Source of the DNA: a virus | IMG/VR virus record: IMGVR_UViG_3300045006_000094 | Span: 1 to 34,274 of that record | DNA length: 34,274 bases | Reading direction: 5' to 3' (one strand) | In this document: positions 5,323 to 34,274 of the stretch, piece by piece | Position numbering within the stretch: the stretch's first letter is position 1 | Layout: each line of letters starts with the position of its first letter | Translations under genes and position numbers: made by a program | Notes under the pieces: generated by a model | The model's database searches: none | What the model saw: the letters and a program-made list of their open reading frames with translations, nothing else | Told to the model about the DNA's origin: nothing

Positions 5323-5600
5323 CACGGCTCACCCCTGTGGTGCAGATCGCGGAGCACGCCCTCGATGCGCGTCGTCCGCGTGAGAAGGGTGTCCAGTTTG
5401 ACCTGGTTGGAGGCCAGGATCTTGTCCTGAGCCTCAACACGGGCGCAGACCAAGGCGACCTCCCTCTCTGTCTCTGAGTAGGTCTCTCGCGGAACGAACA
5501 GCCGATCAGCCAGCAGGAAAAAGGCGCCAAGCGCCGCGGCCACCACCACAATCACCTTGGCGACCTTGCCGTTTCCGTTGGATCCGCGAGCCTGAGTCAA
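5322..5600 (-). CDS. Membrane-anchored coiled-coil protein, Rz-like inner spanin candidate (92 aa)
   Basis: The start is a TTG at 5600, chosen because AGGAGG lies at the right distance and no ATG is available. After a short basic stretch, a single membrane helix (about 15-33, VIVVVAAALGAFFLLADRL) is followed by about 45 residues of heptad-like helix and a polar end. A short N-terminal anchor plus periplasmic coil is the layout of inner-membrane spanins, which disrupt the outer membrane in Gram-negative lysis. No nested outer spanin lipoprotein was found in the other frames, so the role is inferred from topology and from the amidase that follows. Confidence 0.55.
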   Translation of the reverse strand: MTQARGSNGNGKVAKVIVVVAAALGAFFLLADRLFVPRETYSETEREVALVCARVEAQDKILASNQVKLDTLLTRTTRIEGVLRDLHHRGEP

Positions 5601-5609
5601 TGGGTCCTC

Positions 5610-5936
5610 CTACTGGATGTCTTCCTGTTCGAGGATCGCCAGGATGTCGTCGAACCGAAGGATCGTGTGCTCCGTCTTCTCGATGAACGGGTTCAACTTC
5701 ACCGTGACCCCGGCGAACCGGCTGAACAGGACGCGGTCCCCGACCTTGACGGGGCTATCGTTCAGCCTGTTTCCGATCCACGCTCCTTCGCCGACAGCCA
5801 CGACCACTCCCCGGCACGGTGGGGCCTGCGCCGTCTCCGGGATGTGAATGCCACCCCTACTCACGCCCTCCGCTTCGTCCGGCAGAACAACGATCCTGTC
5901 CCGAAGCGGGATGGCCTTCTCGCGCCCTTCTGACAT
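5610..5936 (-). CDS. groES: Phage co-chaperonin GroES (Cpn10)
   Basis: The 108-residue protein follows the Cpn10 pattern along its length: KAIPLRDRIVVLP at the start, a mobile loop (about 22-42) with GGIHIPETAQ, the core GVVVAVGEG, KVGDRVLFSRFAGV, and the characteristic ending ILRFDDILAIL. The hydrophobic tripeptide that docks into GroEL appears as IHI at 30-32. It should cap a GroEL ring, almost certainly the host's since no groEL is in the window, to help fold capsid or other large phage proteins, as T4 gp31 does. It follows AGGAGG and lies between the giant polyvalent gene and the lysis genes, so it is expressed late. Confidence 0.93.
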   Translation of the reverse strand: MSEGREKAIPLRDRIVVLPDEAEGVSRGGIHIPETAQAPPCRGVVVAVGEGAWIGNRLNDSPVKVGDRVLFSRFAGVTVKLNPFIEKTEHTILRFDDILAILEQEDIQ

Positions 5937-5948: not shown

Positions 5949-8900
5949 TTAGTGCCTTCGCCTTGAGCGGCTTCGACCGGAACTGACCTTCGGACTTGCG
6001 AACGACGGCGGAGAGAACCCGGAGAAGTATTCCGGGAACCACTCCTTGGCCCTCTGTCGCACCTCCGTCTCGCTCCACTTGTACTTGGTCATGAGATCCG
6101 TCATGGCCCTCATCCGCGGATCATCCCTTGGTGGGCTCTCCAGCGCAACGATTTCCTTCAGTTGCTCCAAGACGTCCCACATCTTGCGCTCGCGGACCGC
6201 CTTCTTCGTATCAACCCCGAGAGCCTCAGAGATCACCCCGGGTCTGGAAATCGTCCTTGCGGTCCTTGGGACCCTCTTTACTCCGATCTCCGATGACACC
6301 CAACGCTCGCGTTCAATCTTGCCCGTGTTCCACGCACGAAGAAGGGTCGCCACCTTGGCGGGGTATCGCGGCCGGAAGAAGTACGGGAGGCGATTCATGG
6401 CGAGATCGAGCCTTCCGTCGGCTACGAGTCTCCACGTCTCGCCGACGGCCGCCCACGGTGAGTCCACCCTGCTCAGTCTGGCCTTCCATCTCGGGATGGT
6501 GAGCGACGGGACGGTGAACGTCTTCTGCATCTCGCTGAGGCCCGCCCCCATGGATTCGGTCACAAGCCGCATCGTGGGCGTCAAACGCCCCTGCGTGATG
6601 GCCGTGGCGCGGGGGAAGATCCCGACCCCGATGTCTTGGGTGATGTCAACGCCCACGCGGTCCAAGCCCATCTGTATCAGCCCCAACGTCCCGAAGAACT
6701 GGAGAAGGCGCGTGCGCTCCGCAACGTTGGGGACCTCGATCTTGCCGACGCCCAGTTCGGCCCGCGAGAACTTGCGGCCCGACAGCAGGGACTTCGCTAT
6801 CTCCATCTCGCCGTTCGCCGCCCAGTAGGCCCACATCTCCGCCTGCTTGGCCCAGAAGGACGTGAACTGGGCGAACGGCCTGAGAAGGGGCTCCTGGAGA
6901 TAGGGGCTCATCCCCACGCGTCCGTACTCGAACTGGGTCTCCCGGATGATCTGCTGTGCGTACCGGATCGCCTGTTCGTGCGTGAGCCCCCGCTGCGTCG
7001 CTTGGCGGTACGCCCAGAACCCTGTGGCTCCGCGGTTCACGGCCTCGACGTACTGGAACGGGGCAAGGATGATGTCGTCGTGCTTCTTCCAGAACGCGCT
7101 GCTCTGCTCCAGGTTGAACACGTCCGCCGTCGTTATCTCGGTCTCGTCGTAGAACTCGCCACGCAGATCGCGGAGTTTCTTGAGCGCCTTGGAGCGGCGG
7201 AATCCGGGAAGGCGGGCCGCCGCGGCACCGATGGCTTCGGAGTACCCCTTGACCAACTGGTCGGGCCTGTAGGTGAGGCCGAGCCGGATGATCGAGTTGA
7301 ACGCCTGCGTCGAGTTGATGAAGGCGCTGTCTATGGCGGCCCCCAAGAGAAGCCTGTACCACCAGCGCATCATCGCGGCGGAGGCCCTCTTGGATGGGCG
7401 CCCGGCCGTAAGGCTCCTCTCGATACCGCGGAAGAGCGGCCCGAGAGTCCTGTCGGCCGCGGGCATCCGATCCAAGGTCGCGGAGGCCCTCTTGGACATC
7501 GCCAAGATGGGCTTGGACATTCTTTGCAGGAGGAGATCCGTCCCCTTCTCGATGGCGCTTGGCTGTCCCAACATGACGTGCTTCATGTAGGACTCCAGGT
7601 AGCCACGCTCCGTCACCCACGACGACCCCTGATACCCAAGGGACTCGATGCGGTTCATGAGCCCACCGGCGTACTTCACGGCGGGCTCCGTGTAGAGTCT
7701 GCGGAGGCTGCCCCGGAGGTAGGCCCTCATGGCGTGATCGGCGCGGAGCGTGTACCCCGGGGCTCCCTTCCGCGTCAGGGCTCCGGGGAAGAACATCTCC
7801 CGCGGGGGAACGAACCGCCCCGTCTCCAGGGCCTCAAGGACGCGCTCGCGGCTCATCGGGATGCCGTTCTCATCCACCCATGTGTGGTGGAAGAAGTCCT
7901 CGATGGCCTCGATGGGGCTGATCTCGCCCGTCACGGGACTACGCACCAAGAGGCGCCGGTCCCTCATCTGCTGAATGATCTCGTCGTAGATCTTGCGGTG
8001 CTCCAGCGCGATGTAGAGGTGCCGACCCGTGAGCCCGAAGTGGCGGGCCCACTTGATCGGGTCTTGGCGGGACCCGCGCGTGTTGAGGAACGCACCTATC
8101 TTGATCCAGTCGGGAGCCGACAACGATCCCGTGTGCATCGGGATTCTCGGACTGACGCCGTGGATGTCCCGATGGTAGTCGGCCATGGCGAGAGCCCTGT
8201 CCGTGAGTTGCATTTTCAACCCAACGACGGGCTCGCCCTTCTCGACACTAAGGTAGTGCGGGATGGCATCACTCTCACGGCGACCGAGACGGGCCTGAGC
8301 CGCTTGAAGGCGCTTCAGGTAGGCCGAGTAGTGGCGCAACTTGATGCGCTCGCTGTTTCGGAAGACGTTGCTCATCTGTCGGGAGGCGGGCGAGAAGAAC
8401 TCCGGGCTGACGACCACGGTGAGCGGGCTCATGCGGCCCCGGTAGGTCTCCGGCCCATCTCCGAATCCACGCCATTGCCACTCTCCGATGTCCGGCCCAA
8501 CGGGGTACTCGCCAGACTTCGGGCTCAGGAACTCACGTGTGGACCAGCGCCACGGGTTCGGCTCCTCTTGGATGGCACGAAGAACCGTGATGGCTTCGGT
8601 CTCGTCGAGAGCGTCAACGCGAGACTTGGTGGACCCGCCATAGAAAGAGGCCAACCGGCTGGTGTGGTATCGGAGGAACCTCTTCCTCAGCCTCGGGGAC
8701 AACTCGATGGTGCTGAACAACTCGTTGATCTGGCTCTTCAGGCGCTCGCTCGCGGGCGGCCTGGAGGGCGGCATCCGTGGCGGCTCCGGCGGCGGCCCGG
8801 CCGAACGTGGCGGCCCTCCGGGTGGAGGTGGTTCTGGGCCGGACGGAGGCGTGGCGGTGGATCGAGAGCCTCGCTCCTCCCACGGGGCGACTTCGGGGAA

Positions 8901-11900
8901 GGGTGTGTCGTCGGGTGGAGGCCCGTCGAGAGGGTTCCTCCCTGTGGCGATCTCTTCAAGTTGCGAGCGGGAGGCGGCCGTCATGACCTCCTCGGAGGGC
9001 GCTACCGGGAGGCGTCTGGTCGCCTCTCTCGCTCGCATTTCAGCCGGACCAGCGTTGGGGACGATGTTCACTCTGGTTCCGCCGCCTTGGACGCCCATGT
9101 TGAGCAGCGGCCTCGGTTGCGGAACCTGCCGGATCCCCGGGATTGACTCTTCCACCATGAGGTCGTAGAGCCTTCTGGGCTCGCTCCCGGCCCGCATGGC
9201 CATGACGACGCGTTCGTTCTTGGCGGCCGCGGCGGCCGTCTCGTCCGATAGGGACGCGAGCCACAGGCGGCTCTGGTACTTCGTGGACTCCCCAAGGAAG
9301 CCACGCCAGAACTTGGACTCCCTGATTCGGTTGTGGAGTCTTTCCTCGAAGGTTCTGAGGGCGCCCGATTCAGACGCGACGATGGGGTGCGATCGGGACA
9401 CCGCCCCGAGAGTCGTCCCCTCCAAGTCGAGCGTCGGCCGTGCTGATGGGAGCGGGAAACCGCGCTGAGACATGATCTCGAAGATCCGCCGTGGCGGCTC
9501 GCCGTCCCTGAGCGCCTTCATCGCCGATGGGACCCTGGCGATCTTGATGGCGTCCTCACGCCTCATGAGCCCGATCCACGACTTGGTGTTCGGGTTGGTT
9601 GCGGCGCGGAGCATCTCGTTCCAGAAACTCGAAAGTTGAGGGTCGGGCCCCTCGAAGACCTTCCCCGCGAAAGTGGGCTCTATCACGTCGAACCGCGCCG
9701 AACTCTTCCCCGTCGAAGCCCGCCGCCTGATGAAGGCGTCCATGTTCCCGGCGTTGCGAAGAGCCTGGAGGTGCTGTTCCGCGGCCTTCAACACCCTGTG
9801 CGACTGGATCAGACGCTCAGACGGAACATTCCCGGCTCCGGGTGTCTTCGCAGCGACGAGGACCTCAAGAGGTGTCGGAGGGAGCGGGTCACTCTTTCCG
9901 GTGGGAGTGATGACCTCCGGGACAACCTCCGGCTCTGGAATGTGGATCGGCGGCTCGGCGGGGGCGGCGACCGCGGCCGGGGTCACGATTCTGGGGGGTT
10001 CCCCCTCGATGAGGGGCCCGCCGAAGGCTTCCGTGGCGGCCGCTTCGGGACGCACCAAGATCGCGGAGAGTTCGGACCCACGCGATGACGGCGGAGCGAA
10101 GAAGTCAGACCCGTGCGCTGCGGCATCAATGGCCCTGTCGGAGTAGAGCCTCATGGCCCTCTTGAACTTCAGGGGGCCGAGCGTCTCCAGCGCCTTGGCG
10201 AACTTCAGGACGGGGAGATCGGGCTGGTCGAACATCCCGATCTGCGCGGCGAGCCCCTCGACAGAGAGGCCGTCAGCCTTGGCGCGAGTCACAAGAGCCG
10301 CGGCGCGTTGCAGGGCCTCCGTGACGGACCACGCCGGACCAGCGGACTCGGCGCGGAGGATGTCAGGCAGGGCCGCAGCGATTTTCTGGCGGAGACTGGC
10401 CGGGAGAGCCGACAGGAGTGCCGGGTCGTCAATGACGCGGCCGACCAGAAGGGCCTCGATGAAACTGGCCCCGTGATCTGTGAGGGCCCCCGTCTTGGCG
10501 TGCCGCATCGTCGGCATGTCGCGCCACAGGATGGCCCCGTCTCCCATGAGGCGGCCAAGGAGGACCTTTCCGTTCTCGGTCTCCAAGAAGGCTCGGAGGT
10601 TCGGCTCCTCCATGGCCTCCAAGTTGGCCCCGATCCACCGGAAGGTCTCATCGTCAACCTTCCGCCCGCGAACGACAGCCAGAGAGTGCATGTCGAGCCC
10701 GGGAGCGGGATCCACGTTGAGGTCGTCGGAGAGACTCATCAGGTCGTCTACGGTCTTCGATGACTTGTCGAAGACCCGCACCAAGATGGGCTCCTTCATG
10801 GCCTCGAGGTCGGCCGGGTCCAAGCCGAACGTGGCGGCCCGCTGGATCAGAGATTGCCGGTAGAGTTGGCCCGGCTCACCAGCGGCGTAGAGGCGCCGGA
10901 TGAGGATGGTGCGCCCGTTGCCCCCGATGACGAGACCACTCCGAAATATCTGGGGCCCTCCGTCCTTGGGGCTCGGGGTGTCAGCCAAGAGGAGGTCGAG
11001 ATCGGGGTCCTTCTCGTAGGCAGCCAACTTCTGGCGTTCGGCGACCCCCCGTGTCGGAGATCCGTACTCGCGCCCCTGGACTCTCTTCGGGTAGACCGGG
11101 TTCACGCCGAGAGAGAACGGGTCGTGGCTGGTCTGGAGGTCGCTCGCTTCGACGGCGGCGTAGCGGGCGCCCATCTTGGGCTTCACGCCGGGGCGCTCCG
11201 GGATCCTCACGTGAGTCTTCCGGCCGAGAACAATCCCCACCTTCCGGGGAAGCCTGGCGGCTGGCTCTGCCGGGAGCGATGCGAACGCCTCTTGGATCTG
11301 GCTGGCGAGTTCGGGGTCACGACGGACGATCCTGTCCATCTGACCTTCCATGAGTCTGGACAGGTGGGCCCGCTCGATGGGGTCCGGTTCGTTCGTCATC
11401 GCCTCAAGGATGGTCCTGATCCTCTTGGCTTGCGGTTTGCCCTCCAAGAGCCCTAGGGCCCTCGCAGAGGCGACTTGGCGTGGGTCCATGTGTCCAGCCA
11501 CGGCGCCTATCGCAAACGCCCCTCCGAGCCCCAGAACGTCCTTGGCGGAGAGTTTGGTGCCCCTCACCCCCGGGGGCATCTTCCCGCCTTGGCGCTTGAC
11601 GATGGAGAGTTCGGGGAGTGTCGGGATGGTGGACGGTGTGAACCGCCCGGAGGACTCCTTGGCGAACCCCGGGAGCCCGGCCTCGAACTCCCTGGCTGGC
11701 TTCCTGGTCCGAATGGCGATCTCGCCCTCCGGGATATAATCAGAGATGACCCCGGGGATTTCAGCCATGAGCGGACCAACAGCGTGCCACGGGGCGGCCA
11801 GCGGGTGGAGCCCAAGGGCGGCCAGACCGCTCCTGAGCCCCCACGCCCCGGTCGAGAGCGCAGCCCTCCCGGGGGACTCCATGATGGACCGGAAGGTCCT

Positions 11901-12251
11901 TGCGGGATGCGTGATGGCTCTAAGCGGCGCCCCGGGGATGTTCAGGAGTTCGCGCGCATACCCGCCGAAGTACGCGGTCGCCTCTTCCGGTGGGCGCACC
12001 TCTCCAGCGAACGAAGGCATGGCGGTTCCCAAGAGGGCCCCGAGGGCCATCTCGGGATAGGCCGGGGACGCCTCCACGCCTCTGGAGAGTTTCCCAGCGG
12101 ACATGAGGAGCCGGGCGACGGTCTTCCCACGCCTGCGCTCAAGGTCGGCCCACCACGGATGAGACGGGTCCCTGGCAAGGTCAATGGCACGCTGCCTGTC
12201 GGACTCGATCTCAAGCGCCGCCTTAAGGCGGGACTTCAGCGGGAAGTCCAT
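5949..12251 (-). CDS. Giant polyvalent/ejection protein with DdrB-ParB-like domain (2100 aa)
   Basis: A single 2100-codon frame without a break. Residues about 360-500 carry a ParB-superfamily domain of the DdrB type described in phage and conjugative-element polyvalent proteins: VEASDLQTSHDPF, later NPVYPKRVQGREY, then GLVIGGNGRTILIRR, and EPILVRVFD. Residues about 873-1045 contain two diverged copies of a roughly 70-residue helical unit. A Pro-rich linker spans about 1115-1170. The remaining 900 residues are largely helical; the stretch around FAQFTSFWAKQAEMWAYW resembles conserved parts of other very large phage proteins. Position after the tail genes and two smaller putative ejection proteins matches the T7 gp16 slot, so it is probably packaged in the virion and injected with the DNA. 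No lytic transglycosylase or protease motif was found. The DdrB-like domain may blunt host defences, which is inference. Confidence 0.85.
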   Translation of the reverse strand: MDFPLKSRLKAALEIESDRQRAIDLARDPSHPWWADLERRRGKTVARLLMSAGKLSRGVEASPAYPEMALGALLGTAMPSFAGEVRPPEEATAYFGGYARELLNIPGAPLRAITHPARTFRSIMESPGRAALSTGAWGLRSGLAALGLHPLAAPWHAVGPLMAEIPGVISDYIPEGEIAIRTRKPAREFEAGLPGFAKESSGRFTPSTIPTLPELSIVKRQGGKMPPGVRGTKLSAKDVLGLGGAFAIGAVAGHMDPRQVASARALGLLEGKPQAKRIRTILEAMTNEPDPIERAHLSRLMEGQMDRIVRRDPELASQIQEAFASLPAEPAARLPRKVGIVLGRKTHVRIPERPGVKPKMGARYAAVEASDLQTSHDPFSLGVNPVYPKRVQGREYGSPTRGVAERQKLAAYEKDPDLDLLLADTPSPKDGGPQIFRSGLVIGGNGRTILIRRLYAAGEPGQLYRQSLIQRAATFGLDPADLEAMKEPILVRVFDKSSKTVDDLMSLSDDLNVDPAPGLDMHSLAVVRGRKVDDETFRWIGANLEAMEEPNLRAFLETENGKVLLGRLMGDGAILWRDMPTMRHAKTGALTDHGASFIEALLVGRVIDDPALLSALPASLRQKIAAALPDILRAESAGPAWSVTEALQRAAALVTRAKADGLSVEGLAAQIGMFDQPDLPVLKFAKALETLGPLKFKRAMRLYSDRAIDAAAHGSDFFAPPSSRGSELSAILVRPEAAATEAFGGPLIEGEPPRIVTPAAVAAPAEPPIHIPEPEVVPEVITPTGKSDPLPPTPLEVLVAAKTPGAGNVPSERLIQSHRVLKAAEQHLQALRNAGNMDAFIRRRASTGKSSARFDVIEPTFAGKVFEGPDPQLSSFWNEMLRAATNPNTKSWIGLMRREDAIKIARVPSAMKALRDGEPPRRIFEIMSQRGFPLPSARPTLDLEGTTLGAVSRSHPIVASESGALRTFEERLHNRIRESKFWRGFLGESTKYQSRLWLASLSDETAAAAAKNERVVMAMRAGSEPRRLYDLMVEESIPGIRQVPQPRPLLNMGVQGGGTRVNIVPNAGPAEMRAREATRRLPVAPSEEVMTAASRSQLEEIATGRNPLDGPPPDDTPFPEVAPWEERGSRSTATPPSGPEPPPPGGPPRSAGPPPEPPRMPPSRPPASERLKSQINELFSTIELSPRLRKRFLRYHTSRLASFYGGSTKSRVDALDETEAITVLRAIQEEPNPWRWSTREFLSPKSGEYPVGPDIGEWQWRGFGDGPETYRGRMSPLTVVVSPEFFSPASRQMSNVFRNSERIKLRHYSAYLKRLQAAQARLGRRESDAIPHYLSVEKGEPVVGLKMQLTDRALAMADYHRDIHGVSPRIPMHTGSLSAPDWIKIGAFLNTRGSRQDPIKWARHFGLTGRHLYIALEHRKIYDEIIQQMRDRRLLVRSPVTGEISPIEAIEDFFHHTWVDENGIPMSRERVLEALETGRFVPPREMFFPGALTRKGAPGYTLRADHAMRAYLRGSLRRLYTEPAVKYAGGLMNRIESLGYQGSSWVTERGYLESYMKHVMLGQPSAIEKGTDLLLQRMSKPILAMSKRASATLDRMPAADRTLGPLFRGIERSLTAGRPSKRASAAMMRWWYRLLLGAAIDSAFINSTQAFNSIIRLGLTYRPDQLVKGYSEAIGAAAARLPGFRRSKALKKLRDLRGEFYDETEITTADVFNLEQSSAFWKKHDDIILAPFQYVEAVNRGATGFWAYRQATQRGLTHEQAIRYAQQIIRETQFEYGRVGMSPYLQEPLLRPFAQFTSFWAKQAEMWAYWAANGEMEIAKSLLSGRKFSRAELGVGKIEVPNVAERTRLLQFFGTLGLIQMGLDRVGVDITQDIGVGIFPRATAITQGRLTPTMRLVTESMGAGLSEMQKTFTVPSLTIPRWKARLSRVDSPWAAVGETWRLVADGRLDLAMNRLPYFFRPRYPAKVATLLRAWNTGKIERERWVSSEIGVKRVPRTARTISRPGVISEALGVDTKKAVRERKMWDVLEQLKEIVALESPPRDDPRMRAMTDLMTKYKWSETEVRQRAKEWFPEYFSGFSPPSFASPKVSSGRSRSRRRH

Positions 12252-14642: not shown

Positions 14643-16106
14643 CTAGACAGCGTTGTCCGTGCCCATGACGGCCGGGAACGTGTTCGTGGCGGACGCGTCA
14701 ATGTTGATCGCGCCCGTCAGGTTCCCACGGCAATGATTCCCGAACACCATCGTGCCATCTATGGCACCAGCGCCCACGTTGACCCCGTACCCTCCTGAGT
14801 TCCGAATCCTGTTCCCGGAGATGTTGCATTGGGCCGTGTTGAGAAGCCCGGCAGAGATCACGGAGACGCCGTGAGCCGTGGCCCCTCCGTTCCCCACGTC
14901 TTCGATCACGTTCCCCGAGACCTCTGTGTAGGCCGAACGGACTTCGATCCCGCTCCCGGATGTCGCCGATCCGACGATGTAGCAGCCCGAAGCGACGTTC
15001 CCGGACCTTCCAGCTCCGGCCGGACAGTCGAAGGCAATCCCCACACCACCCACCCCACCGTAACTTATCACGCACCCTGAGATCACATTCTGGCTCCCGT
15101 TCACACGGCACGCGTAAGTCGTGCCGCCCGTAAACGTGCACCCGACGATGCGGTTCCTCTGCGGGATGTCGGCGCCGCCGCCGTAGACCAGGTACACACC
15201 CCCGGCACCTCCGCCGACGTTGCACCCCACAACGCCCACGTCCTCCGGGTCTATCAGATAGACGCCGCAGCCGATGGATTGCGTGGCGGAAGACCCCGAG
15301 ATGACCCCGCGCACCCACATCGTCCCACGGAACGCACAGGAACCGACCGACGACGCCGAGCAGTTCGAGATGACGTTGTCGGCGTTGTATCCCGTCCCGG
15401 TCCCGTAGAAGTCAACCCCGTAGTCCCTGTTGTTGTAGAAGTGACAGTTCGAGATGTGGACATAGGAACAGTCGTCCGTCCTGACCCCCATGGAGAACCT
15501 GGAGAAGTGGCAGTTGTGGAACCGGACGAACGACGCCGCGTTCACACGAACGCAGGCCCCGCGTATCATGAGGGCCACGGTCGAGTCGCTCCCGATCTTC
15601 AGGTTCTCGACGTTGATGTGCGACCGCCGCGTCGTCCCGTTCCCGATGTCGAAGAAGTTCGTCGGGCAGAGCATCCCCCCGGTCAGTTCGTAGCGGATGT
15701 AGGACGCTCCGGGCCCCGCCCCAAGAAGTGTCACGTTGTTCACATCGAGCGTGAACACGGGCAGGACGGAACTGTCCAAGACGCAGCGGTAGTTGCCGGG
15801 GGGGAAGAAGAGGATGCCCCCGGCTGACATGTCCGTCAGGGCCGCTTGAATCGCGGCCCGATCATCCGTCACTCCGTCGCCAGTAGCGCCGTAGGCGCGA
15901 ACGTCCCGCATCCCGAGGATCTGGCGAAACCCCGTGATGTTGTAGAGGTTGCTGCCGGTGATGTTCCCGGAAAAGTTCAAGGGGTAGTTGAAGTCAGCCC
16001 CCGACCACCCGTTGATCTTGGTCTCGATGGAAGCCATCGCGGTGTCCAGCATGGCATCCGTGAGAACAACGTGGTCGGCCCATGGCTTTGTGATCGTCCA
16101 AGGCAT
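14643..16106 (-). CDS. Tailspike with pectate-lyase-type right-handed beta-helix (487 aa)
   Basis: Residues 1-65 form a probable particle-binding head. Then comes DVRAYGATGDGVTDDRAAIQ (68-87) followed by GILFFPPGNYRC, the signature entry to the pectate lyase 3 / phage tailspike beta-helix. The rest (about 120-480) shows repeated short strands with Asn, Gly and Cys turns such as NCHF, GCVI and GNVIEDV, one per helix coil. It should recognise and perhaps degrade a host surface polysaccharide. Catalytic residues cannot be placed by eye. The ATG at 16106 overlaps the upstream TGA (TGATG); a TTG one codon earlier is less likely. Confidence 0.85.
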   Translation of the reverse strand: MPWTITKPWADHVVLTDAMLDTAMASIETKINGWSGADFNYPLNFSGNITGSNLYNITGFRQILGMRDVRAYGATGDGVTDDRAAIQAALTDMSAGGILFFPPGNYRCVLDSSVLPVFTLDVNNVTLLGAGPGASYIRYELTGGMLCPTNFFDIGNGTTRRSHINVENLKIGSDSTVALMIRGACVRVNAASFVRFHNCHFSRFSMGVRTDDCSYVHISNCHFYNNRDYGVDFYGTGTGYNADNVISNCSASSVGSCAFRGTMWVRGVISGSSATQSIGCGVYLIDPEDVGVVGCNVGGGAGGVYLVYGGGADIPQRNRIVGCTFTGGTTYACRVNGSQNVISGCVISYGGVGGVGIAFDCPAGAGRSGNVASGCYIVGSATSGSGIEVRSAYTEVSGNVIEDVGNGGATAHGVSVISAGLLNTAQCNISGNRIRNSGGYGVNVGAGAIDGTMVFGNHCRGNLTGAINIDASATNTFPAVMGTDNAV

Positions 16107-16501
16107 CAAAGCCTCCCATAGGCGGCCCAGTAGACCTTGGCCTGCCCGTCGAATGTGCCATTGATGTATGAACTCCCAGAGAGAACGGGCGTCACCAGCG
16201 TGACCCTGAACCGCCCCGGGTAATCACGTTGGTTGGAAATCTCGACATTGGGAACGATGAACTTGAGCGTCGGCCGCGTCGAGGTCCTCTCCGGCGTTGC
16301 GTTTGCCACAATAGAGAGGACCTCGAACAACTTGGTGCCGATGGTCGTCGTCCCCGATCCGCCCTCCGGCATCGTGAACGACCCGAACTCGACCCCGTAG
16401 CCACGGCCCAAGGTGCAGGCCGTCGCCGTATCGAAGCGGTCCCTCTGCTCCTTGGAGACCTCACCCACGGACGTACTCGCTGTAGACCCCGGCCGGGACA
16501 T
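16106..16501 (-). CDS. Hypothetical tail-associated protein (131 aa)
   Basis: The gene lies between the nozzle and tailspike genes, overlapping the first by 41 bases and the second by one. The protein is beta-rich with TIGTKLFEVLSIVANATPE and RPTLKFIVPNVEIS and a C-terminal QAKVYWAAYGRL. It may attach the tailspike to the tail tip, suggested by its position alone. An in-frame GTG at 16468 would cut the overlap to eight bases; neither start has a convincing ribosome site. No family is recognised. Confidence 0.6.
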   Translation of the reverse strand: MSRPGSTASTSVGEVSKEQRDRFDTATACTLGRGYGVEFGSFTMPEGGSGTTTIGTKLFEVLSIVANATPERTSTRPTLKFIVPNVEISNQRDYPGRFRVTLVTPVLSGSSYINGTFDGQAKVYWAAYGRL

Positions 16502-18113: not shown

Positions 18114-19073
18114 CTAGACCCCCGCCACCCCGGGAGGAAGATTCGCCGCCTGGAGCGTCCTGTCCGACGTGGTCGGGACGAACCCCGCCTGCGTGGACGT
18201 GGCATCGAGTTCCGCTTGGAACTGCTGGAGGAGCCGGGTGGCCGTTTGGTCGGCGATCTGCGCTCTCGGGTCGTCCTTGAGGTCGCGGTACGCGTCCGCC
18301 ATGACCATCTGGATCAGGGCGTTCACGAAGCGATCCGGCATCAGCAGCGTGTCCGTGTTCGACGAGAGCGTGTTCGCCGTCCGCACGTAGTAGTACCGGA
18401 TGTTGTAGACGTCGTCCGGCGCGGGGTCCAAGATGCAGTAGCGCGTGAGGTCGAACGTGCCCGAGTCGGTCTTGATCCCGAAGATCGTCGCCTGCTTCGG
18501 CTCCCCGGCCGTCCAAGCGTCCGACCCGCGGAGCGCCCGGCGGCGCAGGAGTTCCTCGATGGACACCAGATCAACGTTCCAGGACCCCGCGTTGCCCGCC
18601 GCGTCGAAGTACCGGGTTCCGGCGATGGGCTTGTCGAAGTCCGATGCCATCGGGCACTCATCGAAGAAGAGCGAGAACGTCTTGTTGGACTCGTTCGAGG
18701 CGTAGGCGAGATCCACCGTGATGCTCGTCGTGGGAACGACCGTCGTGATGCGTGCGATGTCGTTCTGGGCGGTCGTGTTCGTGTAGCGGAACTTCCCGCC
18801 GAGCCACGTGGCTAGGGGGCTCCCGCCGCCCGAGAACGTCACGACGGCCCCCGTGTTCGACGCCGTCCCCGTCGAGTAGTTGGCGATTGTGCGGATGACC
18901 CCCTGCTTCTGGCGCCACTTCCAGTCCGCCATGTAGAAGAGGTCTTCGTACTTCTCAGCGATCATCGTGATGACATCCCCGCGGATGTCCGTGTTCCCAG
19001 CGACGTTCGAGACGGTCTGGAGATGAAGACGCCGAAGCACTCGGTTCGACATGTCCAGGTACGAGATAGCCAT
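18114..19073 (-). CDS. Head-tail adaptor (tail tubular protein A / gp4-like), 319 aa
   Basis: The protein begins with a helix (SYLDMSNRVLRRLHLQTV), then IAEKYEDLFYMADWKWRQKQ, a pattern common in phage adaptor proteins that sit under the portal. A beta-rich middle follows, then YYYVRTANTLSSNTDTLLMPDRFVNALIQMVMADAYRDL, and a final long helix. That arrangement, followed by the nozzle gene, supports an adaptor role. The ATG overlaps the TAA of the coiled-coil gene (TAATG). I could not identify one specific family, so the name reflects role rather than orthology. Confidence 0.7.
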   Translation of the reverse strand: MAISYLDMSNRVLRRLHLQTVSNVAGNTDIRGDVITMIAEKYEDLFYMADWKWRQKQGVIRTIANYSTGTASNTGAVVTFSGGGSPLATWLGGKFRYTNTTAQNDIARITTVVPTTSITVDLAYASNESNKTFSLFFDECPMASDFDKPIAGTRYFDAAGNAGSWNVDLVSIEELLRRRALRGSDAWTAGEPKQATIFGIKTDSGTFDLTRYCILDPAPDDVYNIRYYYVRTANTLSSNTDTLLMPDRFVNALIQMVMADAYRDLKDDPRAQIADQTATRLLQQFQAELDATSTQAGFVPTTSDRTLQAANLPPGVAGV

Positions 19074-19963
19074 TACACCTTCCTCCCGACCCTCCAGGGT
19101 CTTGTCGAAAGAGACTGACTCTCCCGCGAGGGCGGGATAAGTTCTCGCTCTCGGGTTTTCTCCATGGCGCTCTTGATGGCGGCGCCAATCTCGCCGCGGA
19201 TCGTCTCACGATCCGCCATGAGTCTCCGATTCCAAGCGTCGAGGCGGCTCTGCTCCCGAGCGATGGCCTCCGCCTTGAGGTCCAGTTCGGCCCGTCGCAC
19301 CGCCAAGGTGGCCTCCTCAACCTCCGCGACCTTGAGGGCCGCCCTTGCTTTTTCTGCGGCACGCTCCTTCACATCGAGGGACTTCTGGGCCTCTTCTATC
19401 TTCTGGTTCTCGACCTCGAGAGCCCGCGCCATCGCCTCCAGAGCGGCCTTCCGGCTCGCAAGGTCGAGCGAGAGCGCGGTGAGATCCGCCTGTCTCTTCT
19501 CAGCGTTCGCCGCGGAGGCCGCCGCTTCAGCCCCGGAGGCCGCAAGGCGGGCCTCACCGTCCTTGACCGCCTTCTCTCTGGCTTGGAGGGCGCGGTTGGC
19601 CTCTTCGATCTCCTTCTTGGCGCTCGCAGCAACCTCTGCATCGCGGGCCAGAGCCACCCTGTAGGCCCGTATCTTGTCCCGCTCCCGCTTGACCTCAGCC
19701 TCGGCCGTCGAGACGGCCTCCCGCCTCTCGCCAAGGAGCACCATCGCGGCCTCCGACCGTCGAACCGCGTTGGAGGCGTCCTTCTCCCTGGCTTCGCACG
19801 CAGCCAAGCGCACCTTGATGTCGTCCTCTGCGGCGCTGACCTTGCGGCGCCGGCCCTCGACCTCATCGGCCAGCACATCCAGATCGGCCTTGCGCCGGAG
19901 GAGATCGTCCGCCATCGCGGACAGTTCCATCTCCTTCTGTGACGCGCCCGGATGTTCCGTCAT
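19073..19963 (-). CDS. Long coiled-coil protein (296 aa)
   Basis: Nearly the whole protein from about residue 8 to 260 is charged, Ala-rich helix with heptad spacing (for example KEIEEANRALQAREKAVKDG and LEVENQKIEEAQKSLDVKER), predicting a very long coiled coil. It has no signal peptide or membrane helix. Its place between the phosphoesterase-spike gene and the adaptor suggests a fibrous virion part or an assembly factor; a coil of this length could be a trimeric fibre shaft. It overlaps the upstream gene by ATGA and the adaptor by one base. No enzyme motif is seen. Confidence 0.75.
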   Translation of the reverse strand: MTEHPGASQKEMELSAMADDLLRRKADLDVLADEVEGRRRKVSAAEDDIKVRLAACEAREKDASNAVRRSEAAMVLLGERREAVSTAEAEVKRERDKIRAYRVALARDAEVAASAKKEIEEANRALQAREKAVKDGEARLAASGAEAAASAANAEKRQADLTALSLDLASRKAALEAMARALEVENQKIEEAQKSLDVKERAAEKARAALKVAEVEEATLAVRRAELDLKAEAIAREQSRLDAWNRRLMADRETIRGEIGAAIKSAMEKTRERELIPPSRESQSLSTRPWRVGRKV

Positions 19964-22365
19964 GGGTAGATATACTCCTCTGGCCCGATGTCAATGCACG
20001 ACCCCCCACCCGGGGGAACTGGGAATCCAGGATCTCCGTGATCCACAAGATAGGACCCCGGATCGAGATCCCAAGAGAACTCTTTCCATAGACCGCCGGC
20101 ACGGAGCCACGTGGGATCTTGGGCAACGCTCTTCCCAAGGTCCTCATGTCCCGTCGCGGCGCGGTAGTCCGCGATGGTGTCGTACCCTGTCCCGCCGTAC
20201 TGGAACCAATGGTTCGTGGGCGATCCGGGGCACTCGGGGCTTTCGGCGGACTCCACGGCCCCCGGGCGCCAGAAGCAGTTGTATTCCGAGCCGAAGGTCG
20301 CGTCAGCCGCCACGTAGGAGTCCACGGAGTAGAACCAATCGCACGACGTCAGGATGTTGTTCCTGAGGGTCACGTAGCGTGAGGTGCGGGTTATCCCGCC
20401 CGAGTTGTACCTCTCGATGACACCAGCCCCGTTGTCATGATCCCCGTGGGCATAGAAGACGTTGTTGTAGACCGCGCACGTCTCGACACCAGCCAGATAG
20501 AACATCTCTTGGTTGTTCCAGCAGGCGTTGTTCTTGAAGGTGATCCCCCGGGCGTACCGCCCGATGTAGATTCCGTGGTTCGGGTTGTCGTAGATGAGGT
20601 TCTCCGACAAGACGTGCTGGCGCGTCAGGTGGCTGCTCCCAGAGGTGTCTGAGGTGATGTCCACCCCGTTATCGCACCCGTATATCTGGCACCCCGTCAG
20701 GGTGGAGCAGTACGTGCCGTTTCCGAAACTGACACCCGTGTTCGGAGAGGCCGACCCCTTGGGTCCGTAGTCTCCTTCGACGATGCACAGGTTCACATCA
20801 ACGTGGTGCGTGGAGATCCAAGAGCCGTGAGGGTTGTACTCTTCCAGTTTCAGGCTGGCCCCACCCTCGAACGTGCATTCGGAGAACGTCAGGTGGTGGG
20901 AACCTTGAACCATGACGCTGGCGCCCCGGTAGTTCACCCCCTGAAACCGAACGTAGGCCAACTCTTGGTACTTGATGTACCCCGTAGTAGACGTGAGAAG
21001 TGCAGCGGGGTCCCCGATAACCACGATGGGCTTGGCGGCTGTCCCCGATACGCCGGACGTGTCGGATTCCACGTAGTCGCCAGCCTCTATGAAGACGGTG
21101 TCCCCGGGAGACGCGGCTCGCAGAGCGCCAGCCAGCGTTCTCTTCGGATAGAAGTAGGACCCCGGATTGTTGTCGTTTCCGAACTTGGTCACATAGAGGT
21201 TGTCCGGCTCCGGCTCCTGGTTGACCACGAACTCGTAGAGAAGCGGGTCCGGGTTCACGGGGTCAGAGTAGTAGAACCCCGTCCAGACTCGATCCCCTGT
21301 GAACTGCATGACGGCATAGACCACGTCGCTCACCGCCGAGTAGGTTCCATCTATCCAGTCGTACCACGTCGGCGGGATGTCCAGCCAGTCGTTCGCCAGA
21401 GGGTCCCACATCAGCGAGTCGCGCCCCGTCCCGTGACAGGAGAGGTAGGTCGTCCCGGGGCCGCTCACCACAAGAGCGTCCCCCTTGATGGGCTTCGTCA
21501 CGAACGCCGCGTGCGGGTCAGCCTCCCACGCATGGGACGCGTAGGGCTCGAAGGCGGACACCAGCGAAAGCGGGTCCCCACCGCGATTCCGAATCATGGG
21601 TCTGCCGTCAAACACGATGCGGCTGTTGTAGAACGACCGTCCGCTGAAGACGATCTTGTGCCGCGCTGGCGACTGGCGGAGCAGCGACGAAAGCCACGCC
21701 TTCTGCTTGCTGTTGTAGTAGATCCCGGGGTAGTCGGAGTTGGTCCCATAAGACGGAGAAAACCATCCCGGCGGGCACACGCTCCCGTAGATGTAGTCTC
21801 CCGACGAGTTGGTCGTGTCCGCGTTGGTGTTCAGAAACACCAGGAGAACGTCTCCAAACGACGCGGCACCCCAACCCTGCGGAGACACCTCCGGGAAGAT
21901 CGAGGCGAAGTGGCTGTAGGGTGCATCCGTCGTATCGGAATCGCTGGGGAAGCAGTGCTGGTAGGGGGCCAACCCATAAGGGGCCAACGGATCGGATGCC
22001 GGATCTGCATCGTGGTTCCCCGGCGCTCCGTAGACCTCTATCCCAGCGTCTCTCAGAGGGTCCAAGAAGATCCTGAAGGCCTCGTCTTCGTGCGCACCCT
22101 CCCCAGTCGGGATGTCGGCATTCAGAACAAGAGCCCTGGCGAAGGGGTCGTTCAGAATCGTCTGGGCGAGAGCCTCTTCTCCGGCATTGCTCCCGAAAAA
22201 GGCTCCGCAATGCGCGTCCGGCAGAACGTAGATCCGGTCCCGGTTCAAGACCTTGGCCGGGACGCTCGTTCTCGACGGCCGTATCCCGGCCTCCGCAACA
22301 AGGAAGGCCAGCGCCAAGAGCGCGAGACTACTGCACGCCCCAGCCGCCCATGCTGATCTTCGCAC
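19960..22365 (-). CDS. Exported calcineurin-like phosphoesterase fused to a beta-helix (801 aa)
   Basis: The GTG start at 22365 is preferred because AGGTGGAGGT lies just upstream and it gives a clean signal peptide (MRRSAWAAGACSSLALLALA). A TTG at 22398 is the longer alternative. Residues about 45-330 resemble a calcineurin-type metallophosphoesterase: VLPDAHCG (D50, H52), LNADIPTG (D84), and the hallmark GNHD at 116-119. The later histidine motifs are poor: the usual HHP strand reads FSGRSFYNS and no GHxH is present, so activity is doubtful. From about 400 the protein becomes a right-handed beta-helix, starting DNLYVTKFGNDNNPGS and PGDTVFIEAGDY, with many Asn/Cys turns. It may be an appendage or a secreted surface-modifying protein. 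The gene overlaps its upstream neighbour by 38 bases. Confidence 0.8.
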   Translation of the reverse strand: MRRSAWAAGACSSLALLALAFLVAEAGIRPSRTSVPAKVLNRDRIYVLPDAHCGAFFGSNAGEEALAQTILNDPFARALVLNADIPTGEGAHEDEAFRIFLDPLRDAGIEVYGAPGNHDADPASDPLAPYGLAPYQHCFPSDSDTTDAPYSHFASIFPEVSPQGWGAASFGDVLLVFLNTNADTTNSSGDYIYGSVCPPGWFSPSYGTNSDYPGIYYNSKQKAWLSSLLRQSPARHKIVFSGRSFYNSRIVFDGRPMIRNRGGDPLSLVSAFEPYASHAWEADPHAAFVTKPIKGDALVVSGPGTTYLSCHGTGRDSLMWDPLANDWLDIPPTWYDWIDGTYSAVSDVVYAVMQFTGDRVWTGFYYSDPVNPDPLLYEFVVNQEPEPDNLYVTKFGNDNNPGSYFYPKRTLAGALRAASPGDTVFIEAGDYVESDTSGVSGTAAKPIVVIGDPAALLTSTTGYIKYQELAYVRFQGVNYRGASVMVQGSHHLTFSECTFEGGASLKLEEYNPHGSWISTHHVDVNLCIVEGDYGPKGSASPNTGVSFGNGTYCSTLTGCQIYGCDNGVDITSDTSGSSHLTRQHVLSENLIYDNPNHGIYIGRYARGITFKNNACWNNQEMFYLAGVETCAVYNNVFYAHGDHDNGAGVIERYNSGGITRTSRYVTLRNNILTSCDWFYSVDSYVAADATFGSEYNCFWRPGAVESAESPECPGSPTNHWFQYGGTGYDTIADYRAATGHEDLGKSVAQDPTWLRAGGLWKEFSWDLDPGSYLVDHGDPGFPVPPGGGSCIDIGPEEYIYP

Positions 22366-23326
22366 GGTTGACCTCCACCTTCTTGGTCGCCAGAACAAGG
22401 GTCGGCCTGAGTCGCACGTCCGACCAACTTGTCCCGAAGAAGGACAGCGCGTAGGTGGACACCTCCGGGGCGTAGATAAGGAGGTGCCCCCGATTGGGAC
22501 GCCGCCCGTGCTGCCAATCCCGGTAGGACTCCGACACGTCTATCTCGATCACCTGCATCAACTGGCCAACAACACCGCCCTCCGTGTACGTCAGTTCTCG
22601 AAATGTGCCGCACTCGGAAGCCGTCATTCGGTCGCAGAGCGAAGTATCGGGCGTCGAAAACGCCCCCATGCCGGTGCTCTTCATGATGTCCGAAAACCCG
22701 CTCGCGTTGTACCGGGCCCACGAATCGAGCGAGTCGTCGCTGGCCGTGTAGACGGTGCTGCCCCACGCCACCGAGTCATTCCCACACCCGGCCACATCCC
22801 ACAGCAGTTTCCCGGAAGTCGTCATGCCGTGGTTCTGGTTGTAGGTGACGTTGTTCTCAAGCCATGGCTTCACGATGCGAAACGCCTGGATGGACTGCCG
22901 GGTCCCCCACCCACCAGTGCCTACGGTGCTCTTTGTAGTCAGCCGGTAGATCGCGTGGACGATCTCTTCATCGGCGGGGACGATGTGGGCGATGTCAAAC
23001 CAGACCAGGGCGCGGTGCCGCCCTGCTCCGCCCAAGTATCCGAGAAGGAACGTGTCCGGGTCCGCGAAGTTGCTCGTCGTTGCGTTCCCCTTGATCCACG
23101 CCATCTTCATGTAGGTGCTGTCGAAGAGGGCGTCGGGGAGCGAGTCCCGGACGGCCACGCGGATCGTGTACCCGTCGGCCACCCAGTTCCGCCCCATCCC
23201 GTCCGTCTGGGCATCGGCATCCGGGACTTCAGAGATCATGAGGAAGACCAGCACGAACAGGATCGCCACCAAGCCCACGGCCAGGAGCGCGTAGACCGCG
23301 CGCCAGAACTTCTTCGACCGTTTCAT
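22328..23326 (-). CDS. Membrane-anchored DNRLRE-like (CBM96-type) protein (332 aa)
   Basis: A basic start (MKRSKKFWR) and a 22-residue hydrophobic helix (about 11-32) form a signal anchor. The outer part fits the DNRLRE/CBM96 beta-sandwich: RHRALVWFDIAHI, then ADEEIVHAIYRLTTKS, QAFRIVKPWLENNVTYNQ, and a late VIEIDVSESYRDW. Such domains occur in large surface proteins and some bind carbohydrate. It sits between a small secreted protein and the phosphoesterase-helix protein, so the three may act together at a cell surface or on the virion. The ATG shares a base with the upstream TGA (TGATG). The family call is moderate. Confidence 0.65.
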   Translation of the reverse strand: MKRSKKFWRAVYALLAVGLVAILFVLVFLMISEVPDADAQTDGMGRNWVADGYTIRVAVRDSLPDALFDSTYMKMAWIKGNATTSNFADPDTFLLGYLGGAGRHRALVWFDIAHIVPADEEIVHAIYRLTTKSTVGTGGWGTRQSIQAFRIVKPWLENNVTYNQNHGMTTSGKLLWDVAGCGNDSVAWGSTVYTASDDSLDSWARYNASGFSDIMKSTGMGAFSTPDTSLCDRMTASECGTFRELTYTEGGVVGQLMQVIEIDVSESYRDWQHGRRPNRGHLLIYAPEVSTYALSFFGTSWSDVRLRPTLVLATKKVEVNRAKISMGGWGVQ

Positions 23327-23742
23327 CAGAACCTCGGTGTCGAGTAGATGATGGCCCTACCCGTAGCCGGAAGCGTGTAGTCCACCCGGATCTTCCAGAG
23401 CCGAAGCGGCAGGCTGATGGAATCACCCGGATAGAGAGGAAAGGCGTTCGTCGAGTCGGCGTTGGCCGTGATGCCCCAGAAGTGGAGCGAGAACGGCCCA
23501 GAACTCGTCGCGTCGTTGATGATGTGGAACGCCGCGATGTTCAGGGTGTCACCCGAACAGTCCAGACCGGCCCTGGCCTGGATGTACGTGTCCGTGGTCC
23601 CCGAGAGGTTGACGACACAGAACTCGTCTGGCTGTTCCACCCAGTTGGCGATGTCTTCGATGCCGTAGTGGATCCCGACCGCCCACGCAGGAAGGGGCAG
23701 CAGGAGCGCGGCCGCCGCGAGGACGGCGAGAATCGTCTTCAT
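23326..23742 (-). CDS. Small secreted protein (138 aa)
   Basis: The ATG follows GGAGGAAGG. A textbook signal peptide (MKTILAVLAAAALLLPLPAWA) predicts cleavage near residue 21. The mature part is beta-rich with two cysteines that could form a disulfide, and the phrase GTTDTYIQARAGLDCSGD. It is first in a run of three exported or membrane-anchored proteins inside the structural block. No family is recognised. It may be a subunit or chaperone of the larger proteins that follow, which is inference. Confidence 0.65.
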   Translation of the reverse strand: MKTILAVLAAAALLLPLPAWAVGIHYGIEDIANWVEQPDEFCVVNLSGTTDTYIQARAGLDCSGDTLNIAAFHIINDATSSGPFSLHFWGITANADSTNAFPLYPGDSISLPLRLWKIRVDYTLPATGRAIIYSTPRF

Positions 23743-24312: not shown

Positions 24313-25215
24313 CTAACTGGCCGCCCACCCCCGCCAGTCGCTCCACCCGGACGAGAACCGTCCCACGATGGTCGTCAGGCCCGTGAGGGTCCGGCTGTCC
24401 GTGTCGTGGGCGGTCGTGAACGGCTTCCTCCAGTAGAACCACATCTCCGTCTGCTCCTTCTCGGCCTGGACGAACCAATGGGTCGTCGAGGAGAGGTAGT
24501 GGAGCACGACGTACTGCATCCGGTTCCGGCGGAGCGGGTTGACGGCCCGGTCCGCGGTCTCGGGATGGTCGGGGCTCGCCAAGAGGCGCTCCGCGCTCCA
24601 CGCGAGAGCCGTCGGAACGAACAGGGTGCGCCCCAGCATCATCATCGGGAGCCCCCGCTCGTTCTTCGTGTCCTCCAGGAGCGTGAGGACGGACTGCATG
24701 GATGTGACACCGAGTTCCGCCGTCGGCGAGAGGTAGTTCGAGAGCGACCCGGCCGCCACGGAGGCATGGGTCGTCGAGAACAGGGCCTCACCCCTTGGGT
24801 TCGCGGTTGCGGTGGTGAACCCGTTGTTGAGGTTGTCGATGGTCACGCGCTCGACCGTGGCCCTCGAAGAGAAGGCCAGGGCCGGGGCCAGGCGCTGGAT
24901 GGAGGCGTCGAGATCGTCTTCGGCGGCCTCCATGCTCACCTCGTACCCGAGAGCGTAGGTGACGTGGGTGTAGTTGCGCGACGGAAGGGCCGTCACCTTG
25001 TCGAGCGTGACCGAAGACCCTTCGTTCTTCGTGGACAGATAGCCGAACCCCGACACGCCTGTCGTCTGCTCCGTCATCCGTCGGCTCGACTTCACGCGGC
25101 AGTACCGGCTGTACTCCTCCGGCCACTCCTTGATGATCTTGCCGATGATGTGGTCGATGTAGGGCAGGCGGCTCGCGTAGAGGTCTGCGAGATCGCTGCG
25201 ATAGAGCGTGGACAT
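24313..25215 (-). CDS. Major capsid protein, HK97 fold (Mu gpT-like), 300 aa
   Basis: The protein follows the Mu gpT-like capsid pattern: an N-terminal helical arm, YEVSMEAAEDDLDASIQRLA on the spine helix, NNGFTTATANPRGEALFSTTH, then MMMLGRTLFVPTALAWSAERLL, and the ending GRFSSGWSDWRGWAAS, very like the RFSxGWxDWRG terminus of gpT-type proteins. It forms the icosahedral shell. There is no N-terminal scaffolding domain, consistent with a separate scaffold gene. The start has a strong GAGGAGGA site. It follows the decoration gene after a 20-base gap. Confidence 0.9.
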   Translation of the reverse strand: MSTLYRSDLADLYASRLPYIDHIIGKIIKEWPEEYSRYCRVKSSRRMTEQTTGVSGFGYLSTKNEGSSVTLDKVTALPSRNYTHVTYALGYEVSMEAAEDDLDASIQRLAPALAFSSRATVERVTIDNLNNGFTTATANPRGEALFSTTHASVAAGSLSNYLSPTAELGVTSMQSVLTLLEDTKNERGLPMMMLGRTLFVPTALAWSAERLLASPDHPETADRAVNPLRRNRMQYVVLHYLSSTTHWFVQAEKEQTEMWFYWRKPFTTAHDTDSRTLTGLTTIVGRFSSGWSDWRGWAAS

Positions 25216-32484: not shown

Positions 32485-32589
32485 TCACGGCCCGCCGCAC
32501 CGCCTCAGGTAGGCGACGACGCCCGCGAGCAAGGCCGAGAACCACGCCACGGCAGCACCCCGAATCAGCCATCGGCCTCCCGTCGTCAT
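32485..32589 (-). CDS. Candidate 34-aa single-helix membrane protein
   Basis: The ATG overlaps the stop of the VWA gene (ATGA), the coupling seen widely in this genome. The 34 codons give a basic start (MTTGGRWLIRG), a hydrophobic helix (AAVAWFSALLAGVVAYL) and a basic end (RRCGGP). The ribosome site (GGTGGGG) is modest. The membrane pattern and coupling argue for a real gene, but at this length chance cannot be excluded. Confidence 0.45.
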   Translation of the reverse strand: MTTGGRWLIRGAAVAWFSALLAGVVAYLRRCGGP

Positions 32590-34274
32590 GGCCCCACCGC
32601 CCATTCAAGCGCCGCGACCAGATCGGAGACACCGCCGTGAGGCACGGCCCGATATTCGACGTCCTCATAGCCCGCTGGAGCCTGAGTCGCGGAGACGCCG
32701 AGCATGATGCACCTAACCTCTACACCGCACGCCTTGGCATGGCGCACGGCCCACCGCGTGAAGTCCACCGGACCCTTCGCCCGGGACTCCCTCCACCCGT
32801 TGCAGGCCGGCTGACCGTCGCAGACCATAACGACACGCTCAAGACCCTTGACGACGCACCGATCGACGACAGCCTCAATCGCATGCCCGTCGGAGTTGTT
32901 CGCCATCATCCATTCGGACATGCGCTGAAGGCTTGCGGGACTGTCCAGCTCATAGACTACCGACCGCTCGCCGCGCCCGGTTAGCGTCGTCGTATGGCCG
33001 AACCAGAGACACCGACCGCGACCCGCGCCCCGCTCTATCATCATCCCCGCCGCACAGGCCATGGAAGATTTGCGGTCACGCGTTCCGATGATGCCCTGCC
33101 GCATGGACCCTGAAAGGTCCAGCAACACAGCGCACGACGGCAGACGCTCCAGCCCACGGTCGGACCCGTCACGGTCGAAACATCGCGCCGGTCCCTCTTC
33201 GATGAGACGCTCCACCGACAGAGACGACCCCGACCGCGACCACCTCGCTGACGAGTCACGGCCGCGAACCTTGACCTTTGCCGCCTCTCCGAGTAGACGC
33301 CGAACCTCGTCAGGTGGCGCCATTACGCAGCCCTTGCCGTAGATAGCGAGAGAGGGGCCCCGTAGGCCACCGTACCACCTGTAGCGTTCCACGCCTTCCC
33401 GCTCGCCCCTCACGATAGCGGGGGTCGGATAGACCATCAGCTCACGGCCCCCAACCCAGCGCCGCAAGTCCTCCACTCTGGAAAGGTCGAGGTTGGCCTC
33501 CACCTCCGTCCACCCTTGCGCGATCTGGACCCCCGTCCCCCGGTAGGACGTGTCACACACGCCCGCAGGCTTCTCCTGCTGCTTGCCCTCCGTAATCTCG
33601 CCGCCGCCGTCCCCGTCGTTGTACGCAGGCCCTCCGACCTCGAGGGCTTCGACCTTGACCTTACCGCCACCGCCACCGCCGCCGCCCGTCACAGCCGCCC
33701 TCGGACACGCCAGAATCAGCGCGGCCCGCGAACGCGGAGACGGCAGACGCCCCCGCGTGATAGCCCGAGCGACCTTCAGACCCCACGCCTCAAAGTCGGC
33801 AGCGTTCTCCAGCATCGCCCGCCCTTCGACCATCGACCCCTGAATCGCCAGATAGGCGACCGGGGGCACCGCGTAGCCCTTCGAGCGTGCCACGCCCGCC
33901 ACTATGACCTTGAGGAGATACCCCTTCAGGCCACCGACGACCAGACACGCTTCGCAGATGTACGCAACCCACTCATGCCATCGCCAGGTCGGCAAGCCCA
34001 CCGACGGATGAAACAGGCAAACATCCTCCACCCACTGAGCGGCCTGCCGTACGAGAGCAGCCCGCTCCTTGGACGCCGCGCCCCGCTTCAGGGAGCGGTT
34101 GACGGACTCCATCGCGGCCGACGAGTCAATCCGCAGGTGAAGCCCCTCATGGATTGCCGTGGAATAGTCCGTTTCGCCCGCCACCGTCACCAGAGCCACC
34201 GGCCCCTTGCTGATGGACGCCCCCAACGTGTCCCCATTCAGATGGGCCGCGACCATCACCGGCCGCCGCGCCAC
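32586..34274 (-). CDS. CobT-like protein: HEXXH metallopeptidase motif plus VWA domain (5' end outside window)
   Basis: The visible part is 562 residues; a GTG lies exactly at the window edge, so the true start may be outside. HEGLH at about residues 42-46 of the visible part is a zinc-metallopeptidase HEXXH motif. A poly-Gly run (about 197-204) and a variable middle follow. Residues about 380-555 form a von Willebrand A domain with an intact MIDAS: DLSGS at 386-390 and the later metal-site Asp in MVCDGQP (D486). This resembles CobT-like and DUF2201-like proteins that pair with MoxR/CobS-type AAA ATPases, whose gene may lie beyond the window. CobS/CobT-like pairs are known from other phages, where they are not thought to make cobalamin. 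The role here is unknown. Confidence 0.75.
   Translation of the reverse strand: MARRPVMVAAHLNGDTLGASISKGPVALVTVAGETDYSTAIHEGLHLRIDSSAAMESVNRSLKRGAASKERAALVRQAAQWVEDVCLFHPSVGLPTWRWHEWVAYICEACLVVGGLKGYLLKVIVAGVARSKGYAVPPVAYLAIQGSMVEGRAMLENAADFEAWGLKVARAITRGRLPSPRSRAALILACPRAAVTGGGGGGGGKVKVEALEVGGPAYNDGDGGGEITEGKQQEKPAGVCDTSYRGTGVQIAQGWTEVEANLDLSRVEDLRRWVGGRELMVYPTPAIVRGEREGVERYRWYGGLRGPSLAIYGKGCVMAPPDEVRRLLGEAAKVKVRGRDSSARWSRSGSSLSVERLIEEGPARCFDRDGSDRGLERLPSCAVLLDLSGSMRQGIIGTRDRKSSMACAAGMMIERGAGRGRCLWFGHTTTLTGRGERSVVYELDSPASLQRMSEWMMANNSDGHAIEAVVDRCVVKGLERVVMVCDGQPACNGWRESRAKGPVDFTRWAVRHAKACGVEVRCIMLGVSATQAPAGYEDVEYRAVPHGGVSDLVAALEWAVGP
33661..33689. repeat. GGN trinucleotide run inside the VWA gene
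   Basis: A short run of GCC and ACC units on the plus strand encodes eight consecutive glycines on the minus strand, in the linker between the metallopeptidase-like and VWA parts. Such runs can change length by slippage and probably give a flexible hinge. Confidence 0.6.

Follow-up and report, generated by a model that had tools for sequence, protein, structure and literature searches.

Does a gene placed among those for the capsid and tail of an uncultured phage, whose product begins with a signal peptide, continues as a phosphoesterase-like domain and ends as a beta-helix, encode an enzyme, a part of the virion, or a module that attaches to the surface of the bacterium? The gene belongs to virus record IMGVR_UViG_3300045006_000094, whose 34,274 bases, analysed here in full and called the window, also encode a terminase, a portal, a major capsid protein (MCP), an SU10-type adaptor and a stopper-like protein; IMG/VR contig L004 is one further IMG/VR copy, identical (100%) across 14,307 bases. 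The answer that we prefer, tentatively and with somewhat less than even confidence, is that of an exported, Sec-dependent surface-binding module, in which a pseudo-enzyme head of the purple acid phosphatase (PAP) type is carried on a beta-helix.

The gene and its reading frame

The limits originally predicted for the gene were confirmed, with a GTG start at 22365, a GGAGG ribosome site six bases upstream of it on the minus strand, a stop at 19960–19962 and a product of 801 residues (Table 1). The 801 codons are open, the GC content by codon position (0.57/0.49/0.79) is of the coding type, and the gene overlaps both the end of the upstream gene and the start of the next one. Its third-position GC (0.787) is slightly lower than that of the other genes of the window (0.82–0.91).

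Table 1. Positions in the window of the gene, its domains and motifs (residues in 801-residue numbering) and its neighbors.
Feature	Position	Strand	Evidence or remark
Gene for signal peptide, PAP-like phosphoesterase domain and beta-helix, 801 aa	19960..22365	−	GTG start 22365, stop 19960–19962
Signal peptide, residues 1–26, putative cleavage after ...VAEA	22288..22365	−	By eye and simple hydrophobicity rule
Predicted calcineurin/PAP-type domain, about residues 44–370	21256..22236	−	Pfam, profile scores, alignments, guided model
Motif I, D50-A-H52, kept	22210..22218	−	Alignment
Motif II Asp, D84, kept; GD changed to AD	22114..22116	−	Alignment
Motif III, G116-N117-H118-D119, kept	22009..22020	−	Alignment and profile
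Motif IV position, His changed to G242, then R243	21640..21642	−	Inside the 34.6-bit profile alignment
Motif V position, GHxH changed to A282-D283-P284-H285, probable relic	21511..21522	−	Three MAFFT alignments
Right-handed beta-helix, about residues 389–801, starting with a DUF1565-like NLYVTKFGNDNNPGS...GDTVFIEAGDYVE segment	19963..21201	−	Pfam, PHROG
Signal-peptide protein, 332 aa, weakly CBM96/DNRLRE-like	22328..23326	−	Pfam and hydrophobicity rule
Signal-peptide protein, 138 aa, decoration-like by eye	23326..23742	−	Hydrophobicity rule
Major capsid protein	24313..25215	−	Phage_capsid_4 37 bits, PHROG head proteins, relatives in related phages
SU10-type tail adaptor	18114..19073	−	38.3 bits, cut-off 27

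A phosphoesterase fold in the front half

The Pfam family Metallophos (PF00149) matches the protein just under its curated cut-off (19.2 against 21.5 bits, residues 55–175 in an 812-residue numbering), and for that reason the fold was tested by other means. A profile of six bacterial PAP-like proteins, chosen for a common layout of Q..WL, motif IV and GHxH, five of them from among PF00149 matches, gives the domain 22.9 bits, when the highest of 2,000 shuffled sequences reaches 2.7. The addition of 12 PAP-like domains from viral contigs, which were found with the bacterial queries and not with the window protein, yields a profile of 18 phosphoesterases, with which the domain reaches 34.6 bits (E 8.7e-9 in a set of 13,621 sequences), whereas the maximum is 4.7 bits in 5,000 shuffles and 8.4 in 8,620 open reading frames of related phages; in both profiles the choice of the subfamily was guided by the sequence of the window, a mild selection bias, and in both the score far exceeds the shuffles. 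A chance GNHD motif outside any such domain is ruled out by these scores. A marginal independent match was given by a phosphoesterase of Bryobacteraceae (head residues 18–93, 37% identity, E 8e-4 within that genome), and neither tblastn nor pattern searches of phages, plasmids, viral contigs, genome contigs and 396 Acidobacteriota genomes found a close relative of the domain.

From the single sequence, AlphaFold2 gave a pLDDT of 38.9, and the Foldseek matches of that model were without meaning. Guided by the alignment with the 12 viral domains, it gave a model (pTM 0.69, core pLDDT 82–91) with the four-layer alpha/beta/beta/alpha fold, which superposes on rat PAP with a Z of 20.1 (3.1 Å over 245 residues), the Plasmodium protein GAP50 being tied with it at 20.0; as the alignment steers this model, it supports the fold but is not independent evidence of it. 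The calcineurin fold that the original prediction had placed in residues 45–330 was thus found by structure prediction, through a model guided in that way. Taken together, profiles and guided model indicate that the front half of the protein is a calcineurin/PAP-type fold, an assignment with a wider basis than GNHD.

A half-lost metal site

In this superfamily, metal 1 is bound by the Asp and His of motif I, the Asp of motif II and the second His of GHxH, and metal 2 by the Asp of motif II, the Asn of GNHD, the His of motif IV and the first His of GHxH. The early motifs of the protein were correctly predicted to be kept, given that D50, H52, D84 and GNHD (residues 116–119) are in register with the family motifs in the larger alignment; motif I reads DxH, where most comparators have DxG, and GNHD itself is lost in one of the 18 comparators (L170, GEYD). 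The later histidine motifs, as had also been anticipated, are changed: at motif IV the window protein reads IVFSGRSFYNS against IvffHHPlYsS in the family, so that G242 takes the place of the His, and there is no GHxH anywhere in the 801 residues, while the motif IV His and [GS]HxH are both retained in 18 of the 18 comparators. Because of these two losses, the sequence gives good support to the view that metal site 2 is crippled.

The stretch that aligns with motif V contains ADPH, although the sequence statistics of that stretch alone fall short of significance (27 of 5,000 shuffles do equally well). If ADPH were motif V, the His of metal 1 would be kept as H285 and that of metal 2 would have become Asp (D283). 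GRSF (residues 242–245), which one early alignment placed at motif V, was rejected, since the preceding Q..WL helix marks it as motif IV in the larger alignments.

The beta-helix and the interval between capsid and adaptor

The second half of the protein scores 36.1 bits with Pfam Beta_helix (cut-off 25.9), which bears out the beta-helix of the original prediction; residues 400–446 match a tail-fibre family (phrog_17885), and the C-terminus reads DIGPEEY. The gene lies, as had been said of it, in a capsid/tail operon, with the MCP gene upstream and that of the SU10-type adaptor downstream. In related phages, defined via portal, terminase and capsid protein, this interval is variable, and contains ConA-like, fibre-like, glycosyltransferase, beta-helix-like and also decoration-like genes. 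The beta-helix-like genes, found there in related environmental phages (L054, L050, L026, L010, L049, L035 and L025) and called so by eye and not by family search, have an N-terminal segment resembling that of the window protein (of the GNDGNxG...GDVI type) but lack the phosphoesterase domain; one of them (L025 14138–15478), without Pfam or PHROG match, joins a signal peptide to what is by eye a beta-helix.

Other genes of the minus strand complete the picture of this virus. A second beta-helix protein, of the pectate-lyase type (14643–16109), matches tail spike families and is likely the true tailspike. The 2,100-residue protein at 5949–12251, probably an internal virion protein by its position, has no relatives among the open reading frames of related phages. 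A phage-encoded GroES (5610–5936; Cpn10, 79.9 bits) has its parallel in related phage MW202601, which has a gene annotated cpn10; there are also an Amidase_2 endolysin (4885–5325) followed by a signal-peptide protein (4068–4571), and, at the window edge (32586–34274), a VWA-domain protein by eye (LLDLSGSM).

On the plus strand, 254–739 contains a start of the lipoprotein type (MRITLFLVAALVALAGC) and could be a spanin or an exported lipoprotein. This lipoprotein-type signal suggests, on sequence grounds, a Gram-negative-type host. Teichoic acid, which the original prediction named as a possible ligand, is not supported, as nothing found here speaks for it and the host sign points the other way.

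Signal peptides on virion-type genes

The N-terminus of the protein, MRRSAWAAGACSSLALLALAFLVAEA, is clearly recognized as a signal peptide on inspection and under a simple rule of hydrophobicity, with the N-region, hydrophobic core and small-residue cleavage site of the Sec type, in agreement with the original prediction, which placed one ahead of the domain but drew nothing from it. The gene is, moreover, the third of three successive signal-peptide genes (23742–19960, minus strand), two of them with good ribosome sites. Signal peptides are also found on genes next to that of the MCP in other phages (L056 16747 and 18276, L012 14533, L008 17566, L047 17282 and 18691); those of L056, L012 and L008 are on fibre-like proteins of the MCP–adaptor interval, and L056 16747–18264 has an N-terminus typical of phage fibres (NYNLAKPSDGSTTWGASIRDDLDTIDAQ) behind a clear signal peptide. 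Near the capsid gene, L047 18691–19116 and L026 16044–16421 are decoration-like homologues (43% identity over 120 residues), of which only the L047 protein has a signal peptide, behind a good ribosome site; this pair is the cleanest hint of a clade-wide export of virion-type proteins. By count, signal peptides occur in 10 of 169 genes downstream and 16 of 453 upstream, which is no clear excess, under a crude rule whose counts also take in lysis-type genes and false positives. As a pattern, the signal peptides carried by virion-type genes close to that of the MCP are suggestive only.

It is conceivable, although we would rather doubt it, that an environmental podovirus-like clade adds Sec signal peptides to decoration, fibre and beta-helix proteins and exports them in infection, in which case the 801-residue protein would be the most elaborate example, with the phosphoesterase fold as its binding head.

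Proposed function and rival explanations

According to the proposal that we prefer, the protein would be expressed late by the phage and its signal peptide would lead it, together with the two adjoining signal-peptide proteins, through Sec export across the inner membrane; its role there, within the envelope or on the surface of the cell, would be that of a binding module. The PAP-type domain would hold one metal ion at most and have little or no hydrolase activity, and it may have been retained as a pseudo-enzyme head that binds phosphate or phosphoglycan, with the beta-helix as a stalk or a second binding surface. As the gene occupies an interval that in relatives contains fibre, decoration and beta-helix genes, the protein probably comes from cell-surface recognition or still serves it, in adhesion, receptor masking or superinfection exclusion. 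The earlier proposal of binding in place of cutting agrees, by inference, with the half-lost metal site; with this qualification, we think that the protein probably binds a component of the bacterial surface. For this proposal speak the profile scores, the lost metal ligands, the three signal-peptide genes and the fibre and beta-helix cassette of the relatives. Against it are the location in a virion operon and the virion-type relatives found there, which favor a virion role; the alignment of motif V, which is without statistical confidence; and the lack of a close homologue in any collection searched.

The main rival, to which we give a real but minor share of probability, accepts this virion role and supposes an adhesin borne by the particle, a head or tail fibre or spike whose hydrophobic N-terminus would serve for attachment or for membrane contact at infection, or which would join the particle at lysis, and whose head would bind a surface polymer. 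It draws on the position between MCP and adaptor, with what relatives carry there, on the tail-fibre match within the beta-helix, and on the PAP-like domains of tail proteins in other phages (stopper-like in L171–L174, behind a T7-type fibre N-terminus in L175 and L176). What weighs against it is that a cleavable-looking signal peptide, present also on the two preceding proteins, would remove the protein from the cytoplasm, where tailed virions form, and so argues against simple assembly into such a virion; a separate beta-helix spike is, besides, already encoded in the window (14643–16109).

The remaining alternatives are less likely than either an exported binder or a virion adhesin. That the protein is an active secreted phosphoesterase whose metal-2 site is altered, with Asp283 and Arg243 standing in, and which cuts phospho-glycans or releases phosphate, seems improbable: DxH, D and GNHD are intact and the second His of motif V may persist (H285), but the histidine of motif IV and GHxH, universal in the comparators, are gone. 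Even so, one lost metal site need not mean an inactive domain, as Asp283 or Arg243 could step in, and the catalytic inactivity of the domain is something that we infer from its sequence. Very unlikely, finally, is a cellular secreted gene, recently acquired and decaying without a phage function, as the cellular look of a secreted beta-helix (DUF1565-like start, C-terminal DIGPEEY) and the slightly lower third-position GC might suggest; such a gene would hardly be expected to retain its 801 open codons, a good ribosome site, a compact operon in which it overlaps the start of the next gene, and its overall fold.

If the exported binder is the right reading, a phage would have reused an enzyme fold for a binding head that it exports, and a testable pattern would follow, of signal peptides on genes of the virion type that lie next to that of the capsid; were that pattern true, some tailed phages would remodel or guard the surface of their host with proteins resembling their own fibres.

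Comparison with known systems

With the purple acid phosphatases and PF00149 (1qfc, 1ute) the window protein has in common the fold, the order of the motifs, DxH/D/GNHD and the Q..WL helix before motif IV; it differs from the PAPs in the Gly for His of motif IV, the absence of GHxH, DxH instead of DxG, and the fusion to a beta-helix. Plasmodium GAP50 (3tgh), a eukaryotic protein without a beta-helix, has the PAP fold and works as a membrane-side anchor (PMC8949495). Since it is reported to have acid phosphatase activity (PMC8949495), it offers an analogy of use and not a proven dead enzyme.

In the literature consulted, the calcineurin-like proteins mentioned for phages are nucleases, enzymes of nucleotides or of RNA repair, or a conserved protein with no stated role; in a search that covered few subscription journals, nothing turned up about virion proteins that bear a phosphoesterase, nor about virion-type proteins with a signal peptide. 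In the sequence collections, 15 viral loci carried PAP-like domains. In L171–L174 (L174 being a fragment) a stopper-like tail protein carries the domain, with intact motifs, at its C-terminus, and the L171 fusion comes directly after an adaptor-like gene and has a weak phrog_3287 match, as does the stopper of the window; in L175 and L176 the fibre N-terminus ahead of it is phrog_1640, “tail protein”; and in L170 (571–6330) it is embedded in a protein of 1,921 residues, T4-like by eye. For the domains of L171, L175 and L165, tblastn found no relatives among 50,697 named phage records.

These proteins share with that of the window the domain family and its presence on phage structural proteins, but they have no signal peptide, their motifs are mostly intact, and the partner of the domain is stopper-like, fibre or T4-like and not a beta-helix. 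PAP-like phosphoesterase domains thus recur on the tail proteins of uncultured phages, so that the fusion in the window, which the original prediction had rightly called unusual, is not unique. The parts, in summary, are known, and it is their combination, a signal peptide, a crippled PAP-type domain and a beta-helix within a virion operon, that is new to the collections searched.
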